64,000 nucleotides of DNA from Oscillospiraceae bacterium (GTDB lineage Bacteria; Bacillota; Clostridia; Oscillospirales; Oscillospiraceae). Each line of letters opens with the position of its first letter. The stretch's first letter is position 1. Below are positions 464 through 31,695 of this stretch, one piece after another. The notes below the pieces were generated by a model. That model was not told the origin of the DNA. It made no database searches and worked only from the letters and a program-made list of their open reading frames with translations. The stretch spans positions 1-64,000 of the forward strand of contig WQSX01000001.1 in assembly GCA_009787625.1 (NCBI GenBank), read 5' to 3'. The position numbers and the translations under genes are program-made.

Positions 464-1981
464 TCAGCCAATCTCAAGCAAAAACGCCCCGGAAAGCGCA
501 TAACGCCGATAAACCCGGCTCCCATCAGTAAGCAAATAAGTCAAATACAGATGCCGGCCACCGTTTGCCGTGAACTGCTCGCCGCCGCCCGTGATAGACT
601 CCCAGAACGCATCACGCATATCGTTTCGAACATCACGCCTGTCTCGGTTGTGGTCTCTGATATCGGAGCTACGCATATCGTCGCGCTGGCTGCGGGTGAG
701 GTCGGTTCTGAAGTCGATGGTATCTGCAATCTGCCTGTGAAGAGCGACAGCGTTATTTATAGTATCACTATCTCGTGAAAAATCCATGTCATCTTCCATG
801 AAACCATCAAAGCTGATATGAACTCCTGAAACTCTGTCAACACGAGGCACATCTACAACAAACCCGCGCACACCAAACATGGTGACAAGTAATAAAATAC
901 CATAGAGCACTGCAACAACACCTGCGAGCGGCATTATCCACTTTATCTTTGAAGTGACATTAAATTTTCCCTCAAAAACCATTTGAGAAACTATAAAAGC
1001 GAGAGCAAAACCAAGCACGAAACCGTAGTACAAAAACCACCGCCCTGTCACAAGAGTCATCATAAACCCACCCATAGCAACCATGCCCCAAATTGAAAGA
1101 ATAAAAACGATCAGATTCTTAACACCCGAAAAGACAATAGGCTTTTCAGATTTTTCTATTTTTCGGCTTGCAAAAAAGGTAGCGGCAAGCCCCATCAGAA
1201 CTATTGAAATGCCAATATAAATGAGGAAAAAGACTCCCTGATTAGCCTCGCCCCAGTTTAAAGACCAGACGAAAGGACTGGAGTAAGCGGCGATAACCTC
1301 GGCACCCACAACATTTGCAGGATAAAAACCAAAAACATAAGTCGAAGCAATAGCAACTCCAAGCTGAAAAACTAAAATCGGCAAAATCAGAACCAACACG
1401 AAAACAAGCGCAGAAATAACCCACCGACTACTCACCGAAAAAGCAAACAACCAAAGCGCATACGCAAAAAAGCTGGTCACCACGGCACGCAGGAAAAACG
1501 AAAAAACCGTACCAAAGGTGTTGATGATACCGTTTGAAACAACCTCACGGGAAAACAAATCCGCAGGGAAGCAGAGAGCATACTCGCCCAAAGGGAGCGG
1601 CACGGGAAAACGCACACGGATTAAGAGCAGTAGACTAAAAAACAAAAGCGGTAAAATAATGTAAATCAGTCCCGTTATAGAGCTCGTCCAAAAAAGTTGG
1701 CTCTTGTTGTCGGACAGCTCGTAGTAAGCCGCTGATTTTTTTGAGTCAAACAGATATGAAAAATTCAACATTGCCGCGGCAAACGGTAAAATAATTGTAG
1801 CCGCAAGCATCACAGGGTTGCGCATTGCAAGCAAGTCGAGCATACCCTGCGCTCGTTCGGGTGTGTTATCTGTAGGGAAAATAGTCGGCATTAAAACAAA
1901 CAGCGTAAGCCCTATAAGCGCTAGTACCATTATGATTGAAGTTCGCTTAAACTGTTCCTTCATTAAAGCTCTGCTAATCAT
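464..1981 (-). CDS. ABC transporter permease, partner of GntR-ABC fusion
   Basis: 505-residue polytopic membrane protein with roughly ten or more hydrophobic helices and a soluble C-terminal tail. It starts four bases inside the preceding GntR-ABC ATPase gene (ATGA overlap), so the two are translationally coupled and most likely form one transporter, like the YtrB/YtrC-type ABC-2 exporters of Firmicutes. Near the C-terminus (about residues 423-457) lies an Asp/Arg-rich stretch of repeated RD and DxR pairs, not expected in a membrane permease. The substrate is unknown; related systems are induced by cell-wall antibiotics, so envelope stress or peptide export is possible but inferred. Confidence 0.8.
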   Translation of the reverse strand: MISRALMKEQFKRTSIIMVLALIGLTLFVLMPTIFPTDNTPERAQGMLDLLAMRNPVMLAATIILPFAAAMLNFSYLFDSKKSAAYYELSDNKSQLFWTSSITGLIYIILPLLFFSLLLLIRVRFPVPLPLGEYALCFPADLFSREVVSNGIINTFGTVFSFFLRAVVTSFFAYALWLFAFSVSSRWVISALVFVLVLILPILVFQLGVAIASTYVFGFYPANVVGAEVIAAYSSPFVWSLNWGEANQGVFFLIYIGISIVLMGLAATFFASRKIEKSEKPIVFSGVKNLIVFILSIWGMVAMGGFMMTLVTGRWFLYYGFVLGFALAFIVSQMVFEGKFNVTSKIKWIMPLAGVVAVLYGILLLVTMFGVRGFVVDVPRVDRVSGVHISFDGFMEDDMDFSRDSDTINNAVALHRQIADTIDFRTDLTRSQRDDMRSSDIRDHNRDRRDVRNDMRDAFWESITGGGEQFTANGGRHLYLTYLLTDGSRVYRRYALSGAFLLEIG

Positions 1982-3246
1982 TCTCTTTCACCCTCCGTTT
2001 CATAGATAAAGATTTCTTCCAAAGTCATTGGCAGATGGTCGTATACAAGTGGCTCATAACCTCTGATGTGGGCGGCAATTTCCTCTTTATCACCACGCAC
2101 GACCAAAATATCCATACTCCCCATCTCTTCCATATGTAAAACCTCAAGCCCGTCATATGGGAAGTTTTTGAGCAAAAATTCAGGCGGAAACGCAACTTGC
2201 AGTTTGTGCACATTACGCCGCAAATCATCGAGGTCACGCTCCAAAATCATATGACCGTTTTTAAGTATACCAATCGTGTCGCAAAAACCATCAAGCTCCC
2301 GCATATTGTGAGAAGTGATAATGACGGTCATGTCTCTGCTCGAAATATCCTCAATAATAAATTTAAAGACCTGCTTGCGTACAATCGGGTCAAACCCATC
2401 AATGGTCTCATCTAAAAGAAGTACATCAGGTGTTGAAGAAATTGCAAGAGCAAACCCCGCCTGCTTTTGCATCCCTCTTGAAAACGTGGTCAAAGGACGG
2501 TTTGCGTTCAAATCAGTCAAACCAAAAAGTTCCGCAAGCTCATTAAAACGCCCCTCATTCCAAGTGCTTTTATACTTATCGGCAATAAATGATTTAAGCA
2601 TTTTAAGAGTGTAGTCAGGCAGAAAATACATATCTTCCTGCATATATCCGACAATTTTTCCATGCTCGTTTGGCGCACAAGGCATACTGTCGATTCGAGC
2701 CAGCCCTTCATCAGGACTGATAGCCCCCGCGAGGAGCTTTAGTGTGGTAGTTTTACCCGACCCATTCACACCGACAAGCCCATAGATAGAACCCTTTTTC
2801 ACATTGAGATTCAGCCCGTCAAGAGCGGTTATGCTCTCAAACTTCTTAGTGACACCCTCGACTTGAATATATGCATCTTTACCCATGCCAAGCAATTTGC
2901 CGATATCTTCTCTCACTTCACCACGGGCAATCAGCTCCTGAATATCAGCATGAATACGTCCATATAAAGCAGAAACAGCCTCATGCTCGTTCGTTGTCTC
3001 TTCGGAATCAGCATCCGAAAAAACGCTCCAATCCTTCCCGTCTTCCGTCCTGAGAAAATTTTGGTGCTCCAGCTCAAAGTAGGCCTTCTGAATGGTGTTG
3101 GGATTCACAGTCAGAGTTTTAGCCATCTCCTTAACACCAGGCAAATATTCACCGGGACTGAGCACCCCCGATGAAATGAGCCTCTTAAAATTATCCACAA
3201 TCTGATCAAATACAGCCTTACGGCTTTTTAAATCTATTTGAAACAT
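1978..3246 (-). CDS. GntR-type regulator fused to ABC transporter ATPase
   Basis: A single 422-residue reading frame joins two usually separate proteins. Residues 1-72 are a GntR winged helix (recognition region about 39-66, VKEMAKTLTVNPNTIQKAY), followed by a helical linker to about residue 122 like the tail of YtrA. Residues 126-345 are a full ABC ATPase: Walker A GVNGSGKTT (159-167), signature FSRGMQK (255-261), Walker B VLLLDE (275-280), switch His313. In the Bacillus ytr operon the GntR repressor YtrA and the ATPase YtrB are separate genes. The start follows GGAGGTAAACT and the gene sits 28 bp after the ABC exporter gene, overlapping the downstream permease. The fusion could let transporter state feed directly into DNA binding (inference). 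Confidence 0.88.
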   Translation of the reverse strand: MFQIDLKSRKAVFDQIVDNFKRLISSGVLSPGEYLPGVKEMAKTLTVNPNTIQKAYFELEHQNFLRTEDGKDWSVFSDADSEETTNEHEAVSALYGRIHADIQELIARGEVREDIGKLLGMGKDAYIQVEGVTKKFESITALDGLNLNVKKGSIYGLVGVNGSGKTTTLKLLAGAISPDEGLARIDSMPCAPNEHGKIVGYMQEDMYFLPDYTLKMLKSFIADKYKSTWNEGRFNELAELFGLTDLNANRPLTTFSRGMQKQAGFALAISSTPDVLLLDETIDGFDPIVRKQVFKFIIEDISSRDMTVIITSHNMRELDGFCDTIGILKNGHMILERDLDDLRRNVHKLQVAFPPEFLLKNFPYDGLEVLHMEEMGSMDILVVRGDKEEIAAHIRGYEPLVYDHLPMTLEEIFIYETEGERE

Positions 3247-3274
3247 AGTTTACCTCCGATACTTACTACTATTA

Positions 3275-5125
3275 TTATCCCGCAAACTGGCTGTTATAAA
3301 TTTCGCTATAAAAACCACCTTGCTTAAGGAGTGATTCGTGACTGCCTGTTTCCACGATATTGCCGCTGTCCATGACGAGTATTAAATCAGCGTTTTTAAT
3401 TGTGGACAGGCGGTGGGCTATTATAAAGCTCGTGCGCCCTCGCATCAGGTGGTCCATCGCCTCTTGGATATGAAGCTCCGTTCTCGTGTCAACGCTGGAA
3501 GTCGCTTCATCGAGCAATAAAAATGTGGGAGAGGCGGCGATGCATCGAGCGATACAGAGAAGTTGTTTTTCGCCTTGCGAGAGATTTGCATTTTCATCGC
3601 TAAATACCGTATCATACCCCTCGGGCAGAGTCCGTATGAAATAATCCGCCCTAGCCATGCGTGCTGCCTTTACAATCTCAGAACTCGACGCTTTATACTT
3701 GCCATAAGCGATGTTTTCACTTATTGTGCCGTCAAAAATCCATGAATCTTGAAGAACCATGCCAAACAGCGAGCGCAAGTAACGTCTTTTCATATGTGTA
3801 ATATCCACACCGTCAACCCTGATCACGCCACCGCTAATCTCATAAAAGCGCATCAGCAAATTGACAAGAGTAGTCTTTCCGGCACCCGTCGGGCCGACGA
3901 TTGCCACCTTCTGCCCCGGCTTAACCTCAAAATTGACACCATCCATCAAAAGGTCTTTCCCATATCCAAACTGCACATTTTCAAAAGCAATATGACCTTT
4001 GGGCTTTTTGATGCTCTTTGGCATAGCCACGTCAGGCACATCCTCTTCCTCATCTATAAGCTCAAACACACGCTCCGCCGAAGCTATTGCAGATTGCAGG
4101 GAGTTTAAAACAAAACTCGCTTCCGAAAGTGGCTCCTGCGACATTTGAACATACTGGAAAAATGAAAGAATCTGACCGATAGAAATTCGCCCGTTTATTA
4201 CAAAGTATCCACCGAGTGCGGCTATAATTACATAACCAACATGGTTAAAAAGGCGCATGATAGGCATAATTACCATCATTATAAACTGAGCTTTTTTGTC
4301 ATCTTTGTAGAGCTGGTCAATGGCGTCATGTGTGTTAGCTTTTGCACTTTTTTCAAGCGTAAATGCCTTGATTTCAACCTGACCGGAAAAATATTCCTCG
4401 ATACGTGAGTTAAAAACACCGAGCGAACGCTGACGGTTAGAAAACAGCGGACCGCTAATCATACTCACGATTACAGTTATTATTAGCCCAACGAAGATTG
4501 AGCCGACAGCAACCAAAGTTAAAATCCAATTGATTCGAAACATCATAATTACTGCGCCGACAATGGTGATAAACGATGTAAACAGGCGCATTATTGCGCT
4601 TTGCATAATTTCATTTACCCTCTCAAGGTCGTTTGTAACACGGCTCAGAATTTCACCTTTTTTATGGGTGTCGTAGAATTTGAGCGGAACCTTTGCAAGC
4701 TTTGCACTGACTTGTTCACGCAGTGAAAGCACCAACTTTTGAGCTATAGAAGCCATTATCCGCTCTTGATAATAGGTGAACACCGAACTTATCAAGTAGA
4801 TGCCAATAAGGAGCAGGACATATTCGCCGAGCCTCACAAAACTGATGTCGATAGGCCCAAAACTAAAGATTGCAGGTGCAATACCATCAAAAATCACATT
4901 TATTGAGTCTGCGAAAATTTGTGGAGCCCAAAGCGTGAGAAGCACTCCCGCAACTGCGAATATAAACGCCGCAATAAGCTGCCAACGCTGAGGTTTCAGC
5001 GCAAGAACCAAACGCCCCAAAGTTTTGCTGCGATTCTTAGCCTTCTCAGTAGACATCCCTTCGCCAACATCACCCAGCACATCAACTGTTTTGTTGTCGT
5101 CATTTAAACTATAGTTGTCGCTCAT
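3275..5125 (-). CDS. ABC exporter half-transporter, catalytic NBD (heterodimer subunit B)
   Basis: 616 residues: an N-terminal hydrophilic extension of about 35 residues, six-helix exporter TMD, then NBD. Walker A is GPTGAGKTT (411-419), Walker B ends in LLLDE with catalytic Glu540, and the switch His571 is in IAHRLST. The signature is degenerate: LSQGE (515-519) instead of LSGGQ. This is the expected complement to the upstream subunit, which has a good signature but a bad Walker B, so together they give one consensus and one degenerate ATP site, as in LmrCD, BmrCD and TM287/288. The start at 5125 is preferred over 5146 because it follows GAAAGG by 13 nt. Likely drug or lipid efflux. Confidence 0.9.
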   Translation of the reverse strand: MSDNYSLNDDNKTVDVLGDVGEGMSTEKAKNRSKTLGRLVLALKPQRWQLIAAFIFAVAGVLLTLWAPQIFADSINVIFDGIAPAIFSFGPIDISFVRLGEYVLLLIGIYLISSVFTYYQERIMASIAQKLVLSLREQVSAKLAKVPLKFYDTHKKGEILSRVTNDLERVNEIMQSAIMRLFTSFITIVGAVIMMFRINWILTLVAVGSIFVGLIITVIVSMISGPLFSNRQRSLGVFNSRIEEYFSGQVEIKAFTLEKSAKANTHDAIDQLYKDDKKAQFIMMVIMPIMRLFNHVGYVIIAALGGYFVINGRISIGQILSFFQYVQMSQEPLSEASFVLNSLQSAIASAERVFELIDEEEDVPDVAMPKSIKKPKGHIAFENVQFGYGKDLLMDGVNFEVKPGQKVAIVGPTGAGKTTLVNLLMRFYEISGGVIRVDGVDITHMKRRYLRSLFGMVLQDSWIFDGTISENIAYGKYKASSSEIVKAARMARADYFIRTLPEGYDTVFSDENANLSQGEKQLLCIARCIAASPTFLLLDEATSSVDTRTELHIQEAMDHLMRGRTSFIIAHRLSTIKNADLILVMDSGNIVETGSHESLLKQGGFYSEIYNSQFAG

Positions 5126-23213: not shown

Positions 23214-25028
23214 CTACACCGAAGCCTCATCAAGCCGCATAGCCCGATACAACTCGGCATAGTGTCCGTCTTGCTTTAGGAGCTCTGCATGAGTCCCGCG
23301 CTCGACAATCTTACCGTCCTCGACAACAAGAATTATATCTGCCTTGGAAATAGTAGAGAGCCTGTGGGCAATTATAAACGAAGTGCGCCCCTCAAGCATG
23401 TGGGAAATTGCATTTTGGATAAGTTGCTCAGTCTCGGTGTCGATACTGGAAGTCGCCTCGTCCAAGACAAAAATCGGAGGATTGGCTAAAACAGCACGAG
23501 CAAATGAAACAAGTTGCTTTTCACCGGTAGAGAGCTTGTCGCCGCCCTCGCCAACATCTGTGTCGTAACCGTCGGGCATACGCTCGGCAACAGTATCGGC
23601 AGAGACAATTTTTGCTGCCGCAATGACCTCTTCATCGGTAGCATCAAGCCTGCCGTAACGGATGTTTTCCATTATAGAACCTGAAAATAGATGAGGATTT
23701 TGCAGGACATAACCCAGTGAAGAGTGGAGCCAAAGCTGAGAACGCTCACGAACATCACGACCATCAACAAGCACACGCCCACCCGTTGGCTCATAGAAAC
23801 GACATGCGAGATTTACCATTGTAGACTTACCAGCACCCGTTTCACCGACGATTGCAACGGTTGTGCCTTTGGGAACATCCAAGGTGAAGTTTTCCAAGAC
23901 ATTTTCATCGCCATCAGGGTACATGAAAGTCACATCATCAAAAGTTATATGTCCCAAAAGAGGCTCCCAGTTCTCGCGTTTGGGGTTAAAAGTATCGCCG
24001 TACTTCTCTACAACTTCAGGGGAGTCGGTGATTGTAATTTCCTCATTTAACAGCCCCGTTACACGCTCGGCACCAACTTGAGCCGAAACCATCTCCGTTA
24101 TAACACCGGAAACCCATATGACAGGCTCAATCATGATGATAGCGTAAGAGATAAACGCGGCAAGCACCCCGAAGTCCAGTAGATCCATATCAACGAGAAT
24201 TCCGCCGCGGAACAGCACGATCGCAAGAGCAATTGAACCAACAGTTGCAACCATTGGGAGCATTATCGCATTGAGACGTGAAGCACGCACAGACTCACGC
24301 TGCATGTTGTTTGATAGCTCCGCAAAATCTGCGCTGTTGACATCCTCAATGACAAGAGTTTTAGACGTTTTTGAACCTGTGATACCCTCGTTGTACGCAC
24401 CTGTAATGCGCGAGTTAATCTCACGTGTTCTTCTGCTGATGACAATGATTTTGCGTTGAAAAAACCAAGCAATCAGCCAAGCAACAGGCACTATGACAAG
24501 CAAAAGCAGAGCAAGGCTCGGTCGCAGAATAAACATGAAGATAATGCCGAAAATCATGCCAAAAGCCGCCTCGGTCACCGCCATGAACGCCCATGAAACA
24601 GTACTGCTGATACGGTCGGTGTCAGAGATAACCCTTGCAATCAGATAACCAACCGAATTAGTGTTGTGGTAGGCGACCTGAATTTTTTGCAGATGCACAA
24701 AGCAGTCGCGCCGTATGTTTTCCGCAACCCTCACCTCAATGTTGTTGAGCAATTTTACCCAAAAATATGTGCAAATGCCCAAGATTACAATGATTGCTCC
24801 GTACAAAATCGCATACGGCATAATCCCCTCCATCGTACCGGGAATGATGAAGTTGTTGATTGCATAACTTGTGAACAGCGGGAACGACGAAGTAAGTGCA
24901 GTGAACAAAATCATGCTGATTGAAACTAAAAAGTACGCCTTTTTTTGCTGTTTTATATACGGAAAGAGCCGCTTCCATACACCAAGGCTCAAGCCCTTTA
25001 CCTTTTCGTCTTTATATTCGTATTTCAT
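23214..25028 (-). CDS. ABC exporter half-transporter, catalytic NBD (second heterodimer)
   Basis: 604 residues with six membrane helices and a C-terminal NBD. Walker A is GETGAGKST (395-403), Walker B ends FVLDE with Glu524, and the switch His555 is in IAHRLST. The signature is LSTGE (499-503) rather than LSGGQ. It pairs with the upstream gene, which has a proper signature but Asp in place of the catalytic Glu, so the complex has one working and one degenerate ATP site, as in BmrCD/LmrCD. The stop and start codons of the two genes overlap (TAATG), giving coupled, equimolar translation. Probably multidrug efflux. Confidence 0.92.
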   Translation of the reverse strand: MKYEYKDEKVKGLSLGVWKRLFPYIKQQKKAYFLVSISMILFTALTSSFPLFTSYAINNFIIPGTMEGIMPYAILYGAIIVILGICTYFWVKLLNNIEVRVAENIRRDCFVHLQKIQVAYHNTNSVGYLIARVISDTDRISSTVSWAFMAVTEAAFGMIFGIIFMFILRPSLALLLLVIVPVAWLIAWFFQRKIIVISRRTREINSRITGAYNEGITGSKTSKTLVIEDVNSADFAELSNNMQRESVRASRLNAIMLPMVATVGSIALAIVLFRGGILVDMDLLDFGVLAAFISYAIIMIEPVIWVSGVITEMVSAQVGAERVTGLLNEEITITDSPEVVEKYGDTFNPKRENWEPLLGHITFDDVTFMYPDGDENVLENFTLDVPKGTTVAIVGETGAGKSTMVNLACRFYEPTGGRVLVDGRDVRERSQLWLHSSLGYVLQNPHLFSGSIMENIRYGRLDATDEEVIAAAKIVSADTVAERMPDGYDTDVGEGGDKLSTGEKQLVSFARAVLANPPIFVLDEATSSIDTETEQLIQNAISHMLEGRTSFIIAHRLSTISKADIILVVEDGKIVERGTHAELLKQDGHYAELYRAMRLDEASV

Positions 25029-26839
25029 TATTTGGAAACTCCTTCCTGTTGAGTATACCCGGACTGCAAATCATAGATTCGGCGGTAAATGCCGTCTTTT
25101 TCTACCAACTCGGTGTGCGAGCCGATCTCGGCGACTTCGCCATCTTCAAGCACCATGATAACATCTGCCTTCATCAGCGTTGTGATGCGGTGTGAAATCA
25201 AGATGACAGTCGCACCTTGCGTGTCCTTGCGTAGCGACTCACGGATTTTGGCATCTGTCTCCATGTCGAGGTTTGACATAGAATCGTCAAACACCATGAC
25301 AGGAGCATTCATCATTAGAGTGCGAGCTATTGCAACACGTTGCTTTTGCCCACCCGAGAGGGTTACACCGCGCTCGCCGACAATTGTGTCGTAACCCTTA
25401 GAAAACTCTACAATATTATCGTCAACAGCCGCAATTTTTGCCTTTTCACGCACTTTTGATTTATCACGCTTGCGTGAAGCTATGTCTATATTCTCGATGA
25501 TTGTTTTGGAGAACAAAAACGGTTCCTGCAAAACAAGCCCGATATTGCGGCGGAGATACGACTTTTTGATTTTTGAAACATCAACGTCGCCAATGGAGAT
25601 GCTGCCGCCATCTTCGGGCAGGTCGTAAAGAGCGTTGAGTAAGTATGTGAGCGTAGATTTACCCGAACCTGTTGCACCGAGAATGCCAAAAGTCGTGCCG
25701 CTTTTGATTGTGAAGTTGACATTTTTCAGCACAGGTTGCTCATCATAGGTAAAGCTCACATTTTTAAACTCAATATCACGATCCATAGGTGGTTCGATTG
25801 CATCAGGAGCATCTTTTTCCTCTTCGGCATCGAAAATCTCTTTGATGCGTTTGAGTGAGACACCCGCACGACTCATCTCATTTATTATTCTGCCGAGCGT
25901 GCGAACAGGCCACATGAGCATGTTTGAGTAACCGAGGAAAACAAGTAGTTCGCCAACGGTGAAATCACTCGTGTATGAAAGATAGGCACCGACCAAAATC
26001 ACAACAAACGCCTGCGCAAACGCCACGATGTCGCCGATACCCCAGTACACGCCAAGCGTGCCGCCAAGTTTAATCCACTTATCTACAAGGCTTTTGTTCT
26101 TCTCGTCAAACTTTTCAGTCTCATGGAGCTCACGCCCGAACGCCCGCACAACACGGACACCCGTAAGGTTTTCCTGCACCTTAATCATGAGCTGACCCTC
26201 AGCCTCATCAGCGGCATGAAACTTATGCCCTATACGCCTGAAAAATATGATGGTGTAGACCACAACAATCGGCATAAATGCCGTTACAATCGTCGCCATG
26301 ATTGGGTTTAGTGAAAACATAATAATGATTGCAATTACAACCAAAATGACAGTTCGCAGAACCTCAATGAGCTGATTGAAAACAAAGCGCCTGACCGTCT
26401 CGGAGTCGGACGTACACCGCTGAATGATGTCGCCGGTTTGATTGCTCGTATGCCAAGCAAACGGCAAATTTTGCGTGTGCGTAAACAGGCTGATTCGCAT
26501 ATTGTTTATCATACGTTCCGCACCCTTTGCCATGTTGAGACGCGAGATATAATTGGCAAATCCTGATATAAGCTCAGTAACTGCAATCAACATAGCGCAG
26601 ATGATAAGGCTCGTGACCAAAGTCGACTGACCGCCCAATGTCTCATAAATCCACATTATCGGAGCAGGCAGCATGGACGACTCATCGCCGATAACCGAGT
26701 CAACAGTGAACCCGACTATGAGCGGAGCCAGAAAACTCAGTAATGACGCCACGATTGCCGCCAGTATCGAAATAATGAAAAAGTGCCTAAGTTTCTCGGT
26801 GAAACTAAATAGCATAGAAAATCTGTTTTTGTACTTCAT
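25028..26839 (-). CDS. ABC exporter half-transporter, degenerate NBD (second heterodimer)
   Basis: 603 residues from the start at 26839, which follows AGAGGATTCA; an in-frame start at 26896 would run back to the attenuator. Six membrane helices are followed by Walker A GATGSGKST (388-396), signature LSGGQ (494-498) and Walker B VMVFDD, where Asp519 replaces the catalytic Glu; the switch His550 is kept. This is the non-catalytic half of a heterodimeric exporter with the downstream gene. Its leader (26840-27128) contains a leader peptide, competing stems and an intrinsic terminator, which resembles the translation-dependent attenuation that controls bmrCD in Bacillus subtilis. Confidence 0.92.
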   Translation of the reverse strand: MKYKNRFSMLFSFTEKLRHFFIISILAAIVASLLSFLAPLIVGFTVDSVIGDESSMLPAPIMWIYETLGGQSTLVTSLIICAMLIAVTELISGFANYISRLNMAKGAERMINNMRISLFTHTQNLPFAWHTSNQTGDIIQRCTSDSETVRRFVFNQLIEVLRTVILVVIAIIIMFSLNPIMATIVTAFMPIVVVYTIIFFRRIGHKFHAADEAEGQLMIKVQENLTGVRVVRAFGRELHETEKFDEKNKSLVDKWIKLGGTLGVYWGIGDIVAFAQAFVVILVGAYLSYTSDFTVGELLVFLGYSNMLMWPVRTLGRIINEMSRAGVSLKRIKEIFDAEEEKDAPDAIEPPMDRDIEFKNVSFTYDEQPVLKNVNFTIKSGTTFGILGATGSGKSTLTYLLNALYDLPEDGGSISIGDVDVSKIKKSYLRRNIGLVLQEPFLFSKTIIENIDIASRKRDKSKVREKAKIAAVDDNIVEFSKGYDTIVGERGVTLSGGQKQRVAIARTLMMNAPVMVFDDSMSNLDMETDAKIRESLRKDTQGATVILISHRITTLMKADVIMVLEDGEVAEIGSHTELVEKDGIYRRIYDLQSGYTQQEGVSK

Positions 26840-26885
26840 TGAATCCTCTTTCTCTTCTTGGGTACCTATTACGCCACTTACAGCG

Positions 26886-26917
26886 AAAAAGGACACGACT
26901 TACATCGTGTCCTTTTT
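26886..26917 (-). terminator. Leader terminator (attenuator) before the exporter operon
   Basis: 13-bp stem AAAAAGGACACGA/TCGTGTCCTTTTT with a 6-nt loop, ending in a T run on the minus strand, 47 bp upstream of the exporter start. It lies between promoter and gene, so it must be bypassed for expression. An ACACGA/TCGTGT pairing with 26953-26958 could disrupt it. Confidence 0.7.
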
Positions 26918-26944
26918 TAAAGACTTGATAAAAGTTGCTTTTTT

Positions 26945-27040
26945 GTAAATGCACACGAAAACTGAAATGCTTGGGAGAATAGGGTGACTTACCCCTATTT
27001 TGTGCATTTACCCGATATTCGGTTTAGGAGTAAATCACCC
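26945..27040 (-). promoter_or_regulatory. Attenuator with four competing RNA segments
   Basis: In transcript order: segment 1 GGGTGATTTAC (27040-27030, inside the leader peptide), segment 2 GTAAATGCACA (27011-27001), segment 3 GTAAGTCACCC (26992-26982), segment 4 TGTGCATTTAC (26955-26945). Pair 2:4 is perfect and 1:3 has one mismatch. Shorter 1:2 and 3:4 pairings (ATTTAC with GTAAAT/GTAAGT) are also possible. Segment 3 can instead fold locally as AATAGGG/CCCTATT (26978-26999). Confidence 0.6.
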
Positions 27041-27056
27041 TTATTCTTATATTCAC
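27024..27056 (-). CDS. Leader peptide MNIRIRVIYS upstream of ABC exporter
   Basis: A 10-codon reading frame with a GTG start (27054-27056) and TAA stop (27024-27026). GAAAGG at 27070-27075 lies exactly 13 nt before the GTG, the same spacing as eight protein genes in this window. An in-frame ATG at 27075-27077 would give 17 residues but would overlap the ribosome site. The Arg-Ile-Arg motif at residues 4-6 resembles the basic-X-basic stalling motif of macrolide-responsive leader peptides such as ErmDL (RLR). Codons 6-9 overlap segment 1 of the attenuator, so a stalled ribosome would change which stems form. Function as a drug sensor is inferred. Confidence 0.6.
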   Translation of the reverse strand: MNIRIRVIYS

Positions 27057-27106
27057 TGTTAAATCAACTCCTTTCATATAGTATTTACCTTAAAATAAGG
27101 CATTTA

Positions 27107-27128
27107 TGTGTCTAATCGGAAAGACACA
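27107..27128 (-). promoter_or_regulatory. 5'-terminal mRNA hairpin of the exporter leader
   Basis: TGTGTCT/AGACACA with an 8-nt loop. Its first base coincides with the start site predicted from the -10 box, so the exporter mRNA would begin with a stem, which often protects 5' ends. Confidence 0.45.
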
Positions 27129-27134
27129 ATGAGG

Positions 27135-27163
27135 ATTATAGCACACTTATATTCCTTTGTCAC
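27135..27163 (-). promoter_or_regulatory. Promoter of second ABC exporter operon
   Basis: On the minus strand, GTGACA (27158-27163), 17 bp, TATAAT (27135-27140). It starts 3 bp beyond the stop of the VWA gene and drives a leader of about 290 nt before the exporter. Confidence 0.65.
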
Positions 27164-27165
27164 CA

Positions 27166-30100
27166 TTAAAAATTATTTTTTTTGCTTTTTTTACTCAATT
27201 TTACGTAAAAACCTGCTGCCACAATGGCCACTGCACCAAGAGTAATCGCAATTATCGGTAGTATCAGGTTTCTTTCCACACCCGTTTGAGGTGTTACGGG
27301 TGCCGGAGGAATTATTGTGGGCAGTCCATCCCCACCGGGATACCAGGGTGCAGGTGGTGGCGGTGGCACCAGAGGAGGTCTTGGTGGTATCGGCGGTATT
27401 GGTGGTGGTGGCGGTGGTATGGGTCTGTAGGTGTTGACAAAAATGACCAATATACCGTCATCGGGGTTACCAGGGTCTAATAATAGATTGCCGTAAGGGG
27501 TTATGGCAGGAAATTCTATATCTTCTGTTGTAAATGTGGTGGAGAGAATGCCATTTACTATGGCGCTCGCACTTGCACTTACAAATGCATGATAATCCAC
27601 CTCAACAGGTATCTCTTGGACAGAGAATCTACCGGAGGAAATATCAGGCGGGTCGGAGCCTCTGTCTTCAAGCAGATAAATCATATTCGTATAACCACCG
27701 CTAGTTATCTGTTCAGTGCGAGAATTGTCAATAGTAAATGGTGGTAGTTCAGGTGGAGTATCTGTGCGTGGCAGTCCCCATCCTGCGGTCGCCGTCCAAG
27801 TCGGAGTCCATTCTGCATCAATATAAATATTCAGAGGTGGCACAACTGCATTATCCGCAAGCCCTCTGTACCACTTTAGTACCATCAAAGCTCCTTCAGG
27901 TATTGCAATATTGAAAAGTGCTCCAGGTTTCCATGTATCTGTGCCCGGCATCCATTCGGGTTGGACAACTACGATGTGAGACGTATTTGCAGGTGGAACG
28001 ATAGGATCTCCGTTAAAATTTGTTTCAGCAATGGTGTATATGATGTGGCGCACATTTCCGCCCGAATCAGGTGTAAGCCCCCAGTTTGGGGTCCCTCCGG
28101 TTCCGCCTTGGTAAAGAGGTAAAGAGTGCCAAGTGACCCTCGATGTGTGACTGAGACCAGCTAAAGTGGGATTGACCATTAGTTCTGATGGTATAAGTTC
28201 CACCGGATTATACCACGGAACACGCACAGGCGCGCCTAAGTCATTTGTCTGCGTCACTAAAGCCGCTGTTCTGCCGGGTATGCTCAGAGGGGCAACTGTG
28301 CTTGCAATATTGCTACGAAGCTGAGCGTACACAGTGGGCCAATGTGACATATCCTCATCGCCACCCCAATACTTTGTCACTGCAACTTCGGTGGTTGGTA
28401 TTCTAAGGCGTCCATTGTTGCCGAGCCAATTAATAAGAATATTTCTACTTATATCAAACAGGTACTGCGTTGAATACGTATATGTTACACTGCGGTTCAT
28501 TGACTTAGGGACCGCAAGAATTTGCCCTCCATGATAACTGTCTTGTATCCAAGTTGCAAAATCAAATCCCAAATTTGGCGTAAAAAACGCCATAGAATCG
28601 TTGTTATACGTCCCACCAAAATCAAGCCAACGGCTGGCGACAAATGTCAAATAGTTTTGCGGGAAGTGATTGATTGGATTGTCGACAATCAAGTTTGCTC
28701 CGCCTGTAGAATTCAAATCCGCTATCACACTTGCTTGGTCCAACTCCACAGCAAATATCGCACGTATGGGTAAAGCAGGTGTTACCCCTGCTCCGTCAAA
28801 AGCGATTGAAGGAATAAGAGTCGAGGGGATTGTCCATCTTACGATTTGCTCTCCTTGTCGCAATCGCCGTGTGATGCCGCTACCAACCTCTTCATAATAT
28901 GCGAAAGTGGCTGTTGCTGTTAGAACGTCAAATGTCAACTGATCAAGGTTGATGGGAATATTTGGGTCTATCCAAGATGCGGAAAGTCCACTAATAGTGA
29001 AACGCTCTCCGGTAAACCCGGCAGGCGGCACTGTAATGGGCGTTCCGGTTAATGCAGTCATATCAGAAAAAACATATCCGTTTGCCGCCGGGATATTAGC
29101 CGGTTGATGCCACAGTCCGCGCCAACCCGCAAATCTCATATGTGGACCAAGTACATCAGAAAATGTGATTAAACCGTCAAAGTTATTTGTCGGGTCGTCA
29201 ACGACTGCATACTGAGTGCCGCTGTCGTTAATGCTCTCTGTAATAGCTCTAAAAGCCTCTCGCAGAGTAGTTAAATCAGATGCAGCAAAATAGCGGTCTG
29301 AATAGGCGAGTTCACTAAGAGTGAGAGCCGGGGCGCCCACAAGATTGTTGAGATTTATAGTACTTCTGGCATTATTCCATCTGTACTGGTTAAAAGCCTC
29401 TCTGTATTGCCCAAGAAAAGTATAACCGGATGGCATAGGCAAACCTGCGGCATAGGTACGCAAAATGGCACCTACCGAAGTATTTGGTGCAGTTGAGGGA
29501 TAACCTCCCCCTAGATTGCCTACATTCAAACTTCTGGGAAACGCATTGTCAGCAAAGTACGCAGCACTTGGGTTTGCCCTGTTGAACGGTTGCATTGCCG
29601 TATCTATTAGTTCTCTGCCCTCGGGACCAAGGCTGATTGTGTAAAAGCCTATATCGAGACTATCTCTGTTCACCGACAAGTCGGTAGCGGCAACAATACG
29701 ATAGTGGTTTTCTACAACTTGACGCCTGTGAGCAGCTGTCAGAACAGTAAGAAGTGCCAGTGCCGTCTCACCGCGACTTCCATCACCGTGGGTGGGGGCA
29801 GCAGCGTTTGACATCGGAATTCCGTTAGGTCCGCGATACGAATCAAGTACATTTGCAATGGCGGGAGGGAAATGGAAGTTATCCCAACCCATTGTCGGCT
29901 CTCCATCGGTCATAAGTATAATGTTTGGAACGCGCGTGACCATTATGGCTAAACCGGAGTCGGGGTCAAAAGCAGGTTGGGTGATATCCGCCGCACTTCG
30001 TGCCTGTATTGTAAGGTTTGCGGCTGTTTCTAAAACACGTGAACCTTCAAATATTCCCCATTGAGTAGGCGTAGAACCACCAACACCAAAAGTCGAATAA

Positions 30101-30822
30101 TTAATGCTGCCGCCTGACCCGCCAACCACTTGTGCATCAACTCTTATATTGCTGGGAAGTGCGAAAAACTGATTTGACGCTCCACCACGTGTATAGCGCC
30201 CCAGTTCCAACACTCTTTGAACTCTGGCATTACCACTTCCGGCACCACCATAGGCAACAACAGATATACGGTTGTCAGGATTTGCATCGAGTAGTATCTC
30301 AATAGCCTCGTTGAGTGCATCAATCAAAATTTCAATGCGCCTAAGTGTTTGACCGGAGTCAACCCCCGACATACTGCCGGACACGTCAATAACAAACACA
30401 GTATCTGCGGGAATGAGATAGTTTGCCTGAGTTGTAACAGCTTGACTCAGTGCAGAGAGCGTGACAAGAAATTGATTCGCCTGGGGACCCGCAGCAGTGA
30501 CGACATTTGGCCCGCCGCCCTGCACGGTCGCAGGCTGACCGAGATAGTCAAAAATGTATGCCCTATCAACACTGACACTTTTATCAGTCCACACATACCC
30601 CGATTGCAGACCTCTGTCAAACCTGCGATTTGAGGTTATCGGATCCGCCCTCATACTAAATGCGTTGGCAAAACGGGTAGTGCCGCCCGGGTCGACAGCA
30701 TATGCAACGTGTGCCGCGGGAGGCAGTCCAACGATACCCATTGAAATAAGCATCACCATAGCGAGGATAACACATATCACCCTCCTGATTCGAGAGTTAT
30801 TCGCCCTGTTTTTTGCTAGCAT
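27166..30822 (-). CDS. VWA-domain cell-wall surface protein with TPQTG sorting signal
   Basis: 1218 residues. The signal peptide is about 1-42 (basic start, hydrophobic core, VAYA before VDPGG). A von Willebrand factor A domain begins near 142, with the metal-binding DVSGS motif at D146, S148, S150, a feature of adhesins and pilus tip proteins. Large beta-rich repeats without a clear family follow. About 1110-1176 is a Pro-rich stalk, then TPQTG (1177-1181), a hydrophobic helix and a basic tail (KLSKKSKKNNF), i.e. a sortase signal. The class B sortase gene lies 33 bp upstream. GGAGG precedes the ATG. Probably an adhesin or pilus-like tip protein anchored to peptidoglycan. Confidence 0.87.
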   Translation of the reverse strand: MLAKNRANNSRIRRVICVILAMVMLISMGIVGLPPAAHVAYAVDPGGTTRFANAFSMRADPITSNRRFDRGLQSGYVWTDKSVSVDRAYIFDYLGQPATVQGGGPNVVTAAGPQANQFLVTLSALSQAVTTQANYLIPADTVFVIDVSGSMSGVDSGQTLRRIEILIDALNEAIEILLDANPDNRISVVAYGGAGSGNARVQRVLELGRYTRGGASNQFFALPSNIRVDAQVVGGSGGSINYSTFGVGGSTPTQWGIFEGSRVLETAANLTIQARSAADITQPAFDPDSGLAIMVTRVPNIILMTDGEPTMGWDNFHFPPAIANVLDSYRGPNGIPMSNAAAPTHGDGSRGETALALLTVLTAAHRRQVVENHYRIVAATDLSVNRDSLDIGFYTISLGPEGRELIDTAMQPFNRANPSAAYFADNAFPRSLNVGNLGGGYPSTAPNTSVGAILRTYAAGLPMPSGYTFLGQYREAFNQYRWNNARSTINLNNLVGAPALTLSELAYSDRYFAASDLTTLREAFRAITESINDSGTQYAVVDDPTNNFDGLITFSDVLGPHMRFAGWRGLWHQPANIPAANGYVFSDMTALTGTPITVPPAGFTGERFTISGLSASWIDPNIPINLDQLTFDVLTATATFAYYEEVGSGITRRLRQGEQIVRWTIPSTLIPSIAFDGAGVTPALPIRAIFAVELDQASVIADLNSTGGANLIVDNPINHFPQNYLTFVASRWLDFGGTYNNDSMAFFTPNLGFDFATWIQDSYHGGQILAVPKSMNRSVTYTYSTQYLFDISRNILINWLGNNGRLRIPTTEVAVTKYWGGDEDMSHWPTVYAQLRSNIASTVAPLSIPGRTAALVTQTNDLGAPVRVPWYNPVELIPSELMVNPTLAGLSHTSRVTWHSLPLYQGGTGGTPNWGLTPDSGGNVRHIIYTIAETNFNGDPIVPPANTSHIVVVQPEWMPGTDTWKPGALFNIAIPEGALMVLKWYRGLADNAVVPPLNIYIDAEWTPTWTATAGWGLPRTDTPPELPPFTIDNSRTEQITSGGYTNMIYLLEDRGSDPPDISSGRFSVQEIPVEVDYHAFVSASASAIVNGILSTTFTTEDIEFPAITPYGNLLLDPGNPDDGILVIFVNTYRPIPPPPPPIPPIPPRPPLVPPPPPAPWYPGGDGLPTIIPPAPVTPQTGVERNLILPIIAITLGAVAIVAAGFYVKLSKKSKKNNF

Positions 30823-30855: not shown

Positions 30856-31695
30856 TTAATAATATTTTCTCGCTGCGAAAACAATTATCCGCTCATCATA
30901 CTCGCCACCGCGAGTACACGTTGACAAAATCATAAATTGAGAAGCACCATCAGGAACATTCGGAAACACATCTGCCGCCCTGTGTGGCACAATTAGCGCA
31001 ACAGCATATGCATAGTCATAAGCATTTGTCTGCCTAGCGGCAAATACTCTAAACGTAAGGGTTTCGCCCGCACGAGTTGTAATAATAACCTCAGGGTTTC
31101 GCTCCATAAAGGCAGGGTCGAGATATCCAACAAGCTGGGAGAACATCGTGCCATCAGTTGTGTTATGTCCATAAATAAGTATGACATCTTCATCAAAACC
31201 ATCTTGATTGCGATAGTCCATAAAAATTGCCCCGGCGGAATTTCGCTCACCCGAAAAAGTTGTTCTGAGATATCTGTTATTATCGCTACCCAGCACAACA
31301 GGGTACTCAATGAGGTTTCGTATAGAAATCCAACCAATGAAGTTGTTATTTATTCGTGCCAGTTCTTCCAGTGACAAATTTCGTAAATTAGTTGAAATCG
31401 GCGATGCTTCATGGGAAACCACTTCATCGCCGTAGGGTGCAACCCCGGTGTCATCAGAAAACTCATCGTTGACAGCTAGAGTGCTTCCAGAAACATCTGC
31501 AAACTCCTCCCGGAGCATTTGATACTCGTTTCGTGCGGCGGCGGCCTCAAATTCAAAATTTAGTATTGTAAGAACACCGAGAGTGATGAGAAATGTGCCA
31601 ACAGCAACAAGACATATCGTTGGGATATGTCTACGGATCAAATGCTTTGTTGCCACGTTGCTCGCATTGCTCTTTTTACCGAACAATTTACGCAC
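30856..31695 (-). CDS. srtB: Class B sortase
   Basis: 279 residues: a basic N-terminus, one membrane anchor (about 24-46), an acidic linker and a C-terminal sortase domain. Catalytic residues are His177 (IYGHNTTDG), Cys260 (ILSTC) and Arg269 (EYDER). The spacing and the block YPVVLGSDNNRYL...IFMDYRN are typical of class B. It would cleave between Thr and Gly of the TPQTG motif in the adjacent VWA protein; class B enzymes of Clostridioides difficile likewise accept PxTG-type motifs. The start is GTG, preceded by GGAGAGG. No other sortase substrate is in the window, so the two genes look like a dedicated pair. Confidence 0.9.
   Translation of the reverse strand: MRKLFGKKSNASNVATKHLIRRHIPTICLVAVGTFLITLGVLTILNFEFEAAAARNEYQMLREEFADVSGSTLAVNDEFSDDTGVAPYGDEVVSHEASPISTNLRNLSLEELARINNNFIGWISIRNLIEYPVVLGSDNNRYLRTTFSGERNSAGAIFMDYRNQDGFDEDVILIYGHNTTDGTMFSQLVGYLDPAFMERNPEVIITTRAGETLTFRVFAARQTNAYDYAYAVALIVPHRAADVFPNVPDGASQFMILSTCTRGGEYDERIIVFAARKYY

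Follow-up and report, generated by a model that had tools for sequence, protein, structure and literature searches.

Ribosome-mediated transcription attenuation is known for bmrCD (PMC4191407), vmlR (PMC9226507), hflXr (PMC6310831) and cplR (PMC10201436); the comparisons below draw on the available portions of these reports. The vmlR leader of Bacillus subtilis, compared by description, has like the leader studied here a short upstream open reading frame (uORF), an anti-antiterminator, an antiterminator and an intrinsic terminator; initiation-acting drugs stall ribosomes on its uORF, and differing uORF peptides work (PMC9226507). The vmlR uORF has three codons (MIN) and lies inside the anti-antiterminator hairpin, whereas ours has ten, and the vmlR Shine-Dalgarno (SD) sequence is described as single-stranded ahead of the hairpin, whereas here the SD itself is the candidate pairing arm (PMC9226507). 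Leader rli80 of Listeria hflXr (lmo0762) is a uORF attenuator ahead of a ribosome-associated drug-resistance GTPase, comparable by description to the rsgA cases reported below, but its uORF has 14 amino acids with an RLR motif and its product is of the HflX family, not RsgA (PMC6310831). B. subtilis bmrB-bmrCD likewise places translation-dependent attenuation before a heterodimeric ABC exporter, and bmrCD is induced by ribosome drugs; bmrB, however, is a 53-aa leader ORF containing the terminator, while our 10-codon uORF has no terminator inside, so that the locus is not of the bmrB type (PMC4191407). The cplR leader of Clostridioides combines a short uORF (MRI), transcription and translation attenuation, and an anti-SD element, but in the available text its second layer is tied to the SD of cplR itself and the uORF SD is not described as pairing in an anti-antiterminator (PMC10201436). 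The candidate partner here is the SD of the uORF.

The tet(M) and tet(W) leaders (L179 1249-1360, L180 1230-1340) also have an SD, a 7-codon uORF (MRQGILK, MRQVILK) right after it and a complementary stretch ~80 nt downstream; the annotated leader peptide of L179 is a different, later ORF. As members of the family described below, tet(M)-type leaders were rejected: its covariance model R3 had no match in the leader regions of five tetracycline-protection loci, with three weak matches elsewhere.

In the available text of the open-licence literature we found no description of this element, its peptide or CTTTCGTGAATA, and the main text of PMC11109978 mentions neither rsgA nor Paenibacillus. No Rfam 15 family reached its gathering cut-off over the leader (best sub-threshold score 29.9 bits against a cut-off of 54), and in 20 relatives only tRNA and 5S rRNA did so. 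With no published description found and no Rfam family, we take the element to be a new variant of ribosome-mediated transcription attenuation, wide in reach. It has the anatomy of the uORF-attenuator class, a uORF with an SD between a promoter and an intrinsic terminator ahead of a gene; the R-X-R motif of macrolide-arrest leaders is not conserved in it.

The leader was found in a window of 64,000 nt of an Oscillospiraceae genome, on the minus strand right after a large VWA-domain gene. It is ~290 nt long and precedes an exporter operon. Its parts, and the two genes, are as follows.

27135..27163, minus strand: promoter, with -35 box GTGACA (27163-27158), 17-nt spacer, TG, and -10 box TATAAT (27140-27135); the start site is inferred
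27106..27128, minus strand: predicted 5' hairpin of the transcript, GTGTCT / AGACAC
27064..27076, minus strand: SD region of the uORF, GAAAGGAG at 27075-27068; partner of the anti-SD
27024..27056, minus strand: uORF MNIRIRVIYS (27056-27024), GTG start, 10 codons and stop
27027..27040, minus strand: segment 1, the end of the uORF
27014..27026, minus strand: stop codon and conserved post-stop stretch TAAACCGAATATC
27001..27013, minus strand: segment 2
26982..26995, minus strand: segment 3, partner of segment 1 in the exporter branch
26945..26955, minus strand: segment 4, partner of segment 2
26919..26937, minus strand: anti-SD and proposed antiterminator strand CAACTTTTATCAAGTCTTT
26886..26914, minus strand: intrinsic terminator, AAGGACACGAT, loop GTAA, GTCGTGTCCTT, with a T-run (26890-26886) overlapping the end of the 3' arm
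25028..26839, minus strand: ABC exporter subunit 1, ABC_membrane and ABC_tran (PF00664 and PF00005), VMVFDD at Walker B
23214..25028, minus strand: ABC exporter subunit 2, ABC_membrane and ABC_tran (PF00664 and PF00005), IFVLDE at Walker B

An earlier, sequence-only reading had named most of these parts, and they are there: the 5' hairpin, the SD site, the 10-codon uORF, the terminator with its T5, and the four segments, whose pairings 1:3 (27040-27027 / 26995-26982) and 2:4 (27013-27001 / 26955-26945) are interleaved in order. The promoter it called consensus-like agrees with the consensus at 11 of 12 positions, has a TG ahead of the -10 box, and is the best among the 16 sites listed in a scan; the number of promoter-like sites is no higher than in shuffles (13.0 +/- 3.2). 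The letters of the 5' hairpin are not common to the other aligned leaders. The uORF ends 110 nt ahead of the terminator stem. A terminator scan listed 6 others but not this one (8.3 in shuffles), a miss probably due to the stem continuing into the A/T run. What that reading overlooked is the motif at 26937-26919, which can pair with the SD region of the uORF. Some side observations concern the flanks: the terminator region 26886-26917 is near-palindromic and the plus strand matched too (88%); the VWA-domain protein (27166-30822) has 1218 aa, with a sortase gene upstream of it at 30856-31695; and the -35 box begins 3 nt past the end of the VWA gene. A Walker B difference like that between the two subunits (VMVFDD, IFVLDE) typically marks a heterodimer in which one site is degenerate. 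BmrCD structures are among the many ABC exporters that both subunits match.

When 99 relatives were searched at the DNA level, six homologous leaders turned up in the genus, and a covariance model of exporter leaders only (R1) together with inspection gave one more, the compact leader L021, whose locus is also labelled L042. Given these homologues, the window leader is not a chance assembly. Six of the seven were seen ahead of an exporter gene, and L009 is cut by a contig end. Among 400 genomes of the family R1 matched 6, own included, and none beyond the genus. All seven leaders in alignment A1 keep pairing 1:3, with a single mismatched pair in L007 and another in L008. Homologous exporters that lack the small ORF, named by the sequence-only reading as evidence against it, do occur: in eight genus genomes an orthologue 62-72% identical has no leader, and in G009 (L081, upstream of the exporter) a decayed leader survives as a promoter and a terminator-like remnant with no uORF. 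That many orthologues manage without the leader is a point against our main reading, but a tree built from 16 orthologues and two paralogues groups the leader-bearing genes with the decayed one in a single clade (local support 0.998), which fits one gain and one decay. Mobile spread was considered and dropped: blastn found nothing for the window and L121 leaders in plasmids and phages, nor for the L130 leader in plasmids.

The element is also found ahead of other genes. Two leaders in the relatives, L012 (DNA search) and L020 (R1), belong to rsgA-like GTPases; their SD and post-stop stretch resemble those of the exporter leaders while the short uORF is a different one, and ahead of its terminator L020 carries ACCTTTCGTGAATA, of which L012 has a variant. 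A leader of this kind also precedes an rsgA gene in the window's own genome (G000:C21:40485), besides another strong rsgA copy there, and two or three strong copies are present in all eight genomes checked. A genus pattern scan with ACYTTTCGTGAA, which misses ACTTTCGTGAA, already found rsgA leaders, and a corrected pattern was then used. R2, a covariance model of 12 genus leaders, matched 20 of 394 genomes of the order at E <= 0.05, with six other families represented, and 11 at E <= 1e-5, own included; of its 21 places two were own, L115 and L116 were judged chance, and L098, L100, L102, L106 and L109 were duplicate contig matches. One DNA pattern run over GTDB-220 genome contigs matched 23 stretches, 20 of them genuine by inspection (L134, L135 and L139 were judged chance), in hosts that include Paenibacillus amylolyticus, P. 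radicis, P. arenilitoris, P. polysaccharolyticus, Saccharibacillus, Gorillibacterium, Anaeromassilibacillus and Anaerotruncus. R3, built from 38 leaders, was run on a class sample of 391 genomes, where 24 matched, 15 of them at E <= 1e-5, and on a phylum sample of 398, where 9 matched, 7 of them at E <= 1e-5; both sets of counts include the own genome. There were three matches in G842 and two each in G964 and G1066. Several chance matches are expected at limits of E <= 0.05 or 0.01 per genome over ~400 genomes, and counts at E <= 1e-5 are therefore given too; Infernal's stricter filters were used, at the cost of weak matches. The class and phylum matches were inspected at 33 places, where L144 and L145 repeat known loci.

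By these searches the window leader is one copy of a family of putative attenuators in several Bacillota classes, with copies in Clostridia and in Paenibacillaceae, from gut and soil. It scores 77.3 bits with R3 (E 1.8e-14), being among the model's own 38 sequences, and has the family's features: SD, uORF of 8-15 codons, post-stop AAAC..ATA, 2:4 helix, and an anti-SD before the terminator, this last (CAACTTTTATCAAG) off consensus as in L004 and L012. Six weak class and phylum matches (L156, L159, L160, L162, L168, L175) have the uORF and the post-stop motif; by eye they have no CTTTC(G) anti-SD at the usual place, and in most it lies ~10 nt upstream. In these six, CTTCTTTCGAGCAACC-like letters replace ACCTTTCGTGAATA, and CTTTCG could be a shifted anti-SD.

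The genes downstream, identified with Pfam for 20 proteins and by eye for the other rsgA-like calls, are most often rsgA-like. The Pfam identifications are:

L031, L160: RsgA GTPase
L104: RNHCP
L129, L140, L170, and second gene in L121: APH family
L101, L159, L171: methyltransferase
L149, L156, L172, and second gene in L123: GNAT
L105, L169, and second gene in L103: ABC ATPase domain
L113, 343 nt away: CAAX protease-like
L164: EF-G-like

The downstream protein of L142 had no Pfam match. That of L164 (436 residues in the locus) scored 433 bits to the NCBIfam tetracycline ribosomal protection model, whose cut-off is 775. By name the downstream genes are largely ribosome- or drug-linked, and together they would make up a ribosome-defence regulon. 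A separate observation is that rsgA-type leaders (L121, L125, L129, L138 and others) have a second conserved hairpin between the attenuator terminator and the gene, of the type GCCGC..AGCAGCTTC..GAGGCTGCT..GCGGCATTTTTGCG, perhaps a second terminator.

Pairings were assessed across 44 leaders: the 12 complete genus leaders (L009, being cut, was left out), the genuine R2 leaders of the order and the GTDB-220 pattern leaders. Alignment A4 holds 38 of them, without L006 and L007 (long inserts), L042 and L105 (short loop), L111 (no clear anti-SD) and L133 (near-duplicate). RNAalifold, given a MAFFT alignment of 38 leaders and no structure, returned a sole helix, between the SD region and the motif before the terminator, with 7 pairs of which two show changes on both sides. 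When the structure was named, 96% of cells were paired over the 6 pairs of SD:anti-SD, which had one invariant pair besides; for 2:4 it was 74.5% of cells, and 6 of its 7 pairs showed double changes. Cells paired, double-change cells and covariation score were reached by none of 500 shuffles; two remaining whole-structure measures were weaker (31/500 and 19/500 shuffles reach the observed value), and slid versions of the structure reached none of the five measures. In an alignment-free swap test, in which each leader's segments were paired with those of other leaders, native 2:4 pairing gave -14.2 vs -11.5 kcal/mol, and 0 of 5000 permutations were as good (n=42; likewise in a thinned set, n=29). 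We regard this covariation as decisive for the predicted 2:4 helix. The same test was marginal for SD:anti-SD (126/5000, thinned 977/5000), and showed no covariation for the anti-SD with the terminator (2271/5000, thinned 1134/5000); for the three control pairings the counts ranged from 603 to 4393 of 5000.

As the swap test is marginal, the case for SD:anti-SD is made by near-universal complementarity and by unguided folding with few compensations, such as CAAAAGG/CCTTTTG in L105 and L114 and GAAGGG/CCCTTC in L101, found by eye; L111 has no clear anti-SD by eye, and L132 matches the SD poorly. On this evidence SD:anti-SD is well supported as a candidate anti-antiterminator. For the antiterminator, where the swap test shows no covariation, it is energy models that speak. 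With the SD and uORF masked, the predicted free probability of the terminator 5' arm falls in 12/12 genus leaders (from 0.45 to 0.22 in the window). In a run of the 44 leaders, where the wrong terminator was picked in some, the predicted pairing of the anti-SD to the SD/uORF region exceeds 0.3 in 38/44, and masking raises anti-SD:arm pairing in 28/44 and pairing of the arm to upstream RNA in 30, lowering the latter in 7.

The window leader itself is predicted to fold strongly: 249 nt of it reach -79.5 kcal/mol against -45.8 +/- 4.5 in 200 shuffles, none as good (z -7.5). In the unmasked nascent RNA, predicted probabilities are 1.00 for 1:3, 0.78 for SD:anti-SD and 0.43 for the antiterminator. 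A ribosome over the uORF start takes SD:anti-SD from 0.78 to 0 and the antiterminator from 0.43 to 0.54, and a second ribosome at the stop brings the latter to 0.68, a modest predicted gain. When the ribosome sits only at codon 6 or 10, 2:4 (0.90) takes the place of 1:3, and SD:anti-SD and the antiterminator stay unchanged. Since only start occupancy shifts these two pairings, the uORF start is the likely sensed place, as in vmlR. The sequence-only reading had a different switch, in which the ribosome on the uORF would free segment 4 and TCGTGT, overlapping it, would then pair with the terminator. In the predicted fold the first step goes the opposite way, as occupancy of codon 6 or 10 forms 2:4 and hides segment 4. 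TCGTGT is indeed present at 26958-26953, but its pairing with the terminator arm is 0.000-0.136 in six folding conditions, and it occurs in one of seven complete exporter leaders; TTTCG between uORF and anti-SD, in 4 of the 7, may be a second antiterminator copy in exporter leaders. GGACACG terminators also occur elsewhere in the family (L010, L011), and the CACGA of the window terminator is thus in itself no evidence of a switch.

We consider it probable that the leader is a translation-gated transcription attenuator, with SD:anti-SD as its default pairing, replaced by the antiterminator on start occupancy, and a ribosome drug as the likely signal. By default, the SD region of the ~10-codon uORF would pair with the anti-SD just upstream of the terminator, leaving the terminator 5' arm free, and transcription would end ~240 nt from its start. 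A ribosome staying on the uORF start, whether arrested during initiation, stuck within the first codons or waiting behind another that is held at the stop, would cover the SD; the freed anti-SD would then pair with the terminator 5' arm, and RNA polymerase would read into the exporter. A ribosome-targeting drug or a similar block would be the likely signal. In the exporter branch a ribosome further along would in addition swap 1:3 for 2:4. The core of the earlier proposal, a uORF-dependent attenuator with anatomy unlike bmrB ahead of a two-subunit ABC exporter, is supported as a prediction.

An alternative, which we think unlikely, puts the sensor in the peptide: a drug-bound ribosome would stall in the uORF through its nascent chain (a basic-X-basic motif, or the V-x-x-S/T end), and read-through would be set by the change from 1:3 to 2:4 that is predicted on masking codon 6 or 10, rather than by SD masking. 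The uORF was surveyed in 73 leaders, including 29 of the 33 inspected class and phylum places (L141 and L143 are duplicates, L176 is short, L177 chance). It has 8-15 codons in all 73, exactly 10 in 40, and its C-terminal conservation favours the peptide: Val at -4 in 68/73 and S or T at -1 in 40/73. The Val, however, sits inside an RNA-level GGTG, found 13 nt ahead of the stop in 67/73, and codon -5 may specify any residue but has G as its third base (position -13) in 72/73, so that the constraint looks like one on RNA; counts for GGTG and the post-stop motifs are inflated, as the uORF was chosen by a score rewarding both. The eight exporter uORFs are MNIRIRVIYS, MKIRVRVIYS, MNNRVWVIYS, MKNKVWVIYS, MLNRIRVIYS, MNYKVWVIYS, MSNRVWVVYS and MRNKRVQVSFT. 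The sequence-only reading had likened RIR to drug-arrest motifs, and the RLR leader of Listeria hflXr, in the available text, is a precedent (PMC6310831). Basic-X-basic is indeed present in 5/8 exporter uORFs vs 0/66 others, which hints at a peptide role particular to the exporter branch; with 0/66 in the wider family, arrest by that motif cannot be the family mechanism, and R-X-R, in only 3/8, was dropped as the family's sensor. The swap on its own, moreover, keeps the predicted antiterminator at 0.43.

Improbable, in our judgement, is an opposite polarity or other signal, in which the uORF would gauge, in normal physiology, the supply of ribosomes or the rate of initiation as rsgA feedback and drugs would be incidental. 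The usual neighbour, an RsgA-type GTPase, is by family a 30S maturation factor, and the proposed sensed site is the SD, both as such feedback would have it, but APH-like, tetracycline-protection-like, methyltransferase and exporter genes are an odd set for it. That the leader is kept for something else, such as small RNA or protein binding, with the attenuator anatomy incidental, is very improbable: post-stop AAACCGAATA and TTTCGTGAATA are conserved beyond coding needs and no pairing partner was found for the post-stop motif, but the uORF is present in 73/73, in the window it lies between a promoter and a terminator, and no Rfam family matched at gathering score.

Returning to the translation-gated attenuator, its uORF length may be part of the device. 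Ten codons are about one ribosome length, and the ~10-codon uORF may fit one ribosome at the stop with a second trapped over the SD. Hypothetically, GGUG would sit in the SD position of the ribosome terminating at the uORF stop, and a ribosome held there could trap the next one over the SD. A further-reaching version, possible though in our view doubtful, is that the leader is a peptide-blind sensor of ribosome occupancy, in which the uORF SD is the switch arm and any agent that stalls ribosomes at or close to initiation would turn the gene on, that it marks a cross-species ribosome-defence regulon, and that the accessory RsgA is an undescribed inducible resistance GTPase like HflXr.

If the reading is right, a single gain of the leader would explain the control of one exporter lineage, and the attenuator would be one in which the Shine-Dalgarno sequence itself, rather than a leader-peptide motif, is the sensor arm. 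The family would then be a widespread cis-regulatory RNA tagging genes as ribosome-stress responsive, and would give testable roles to the accessory RsgA, RNHCP and APH-like genes in cultivated Paenibacillus and Oscillospiraceae.
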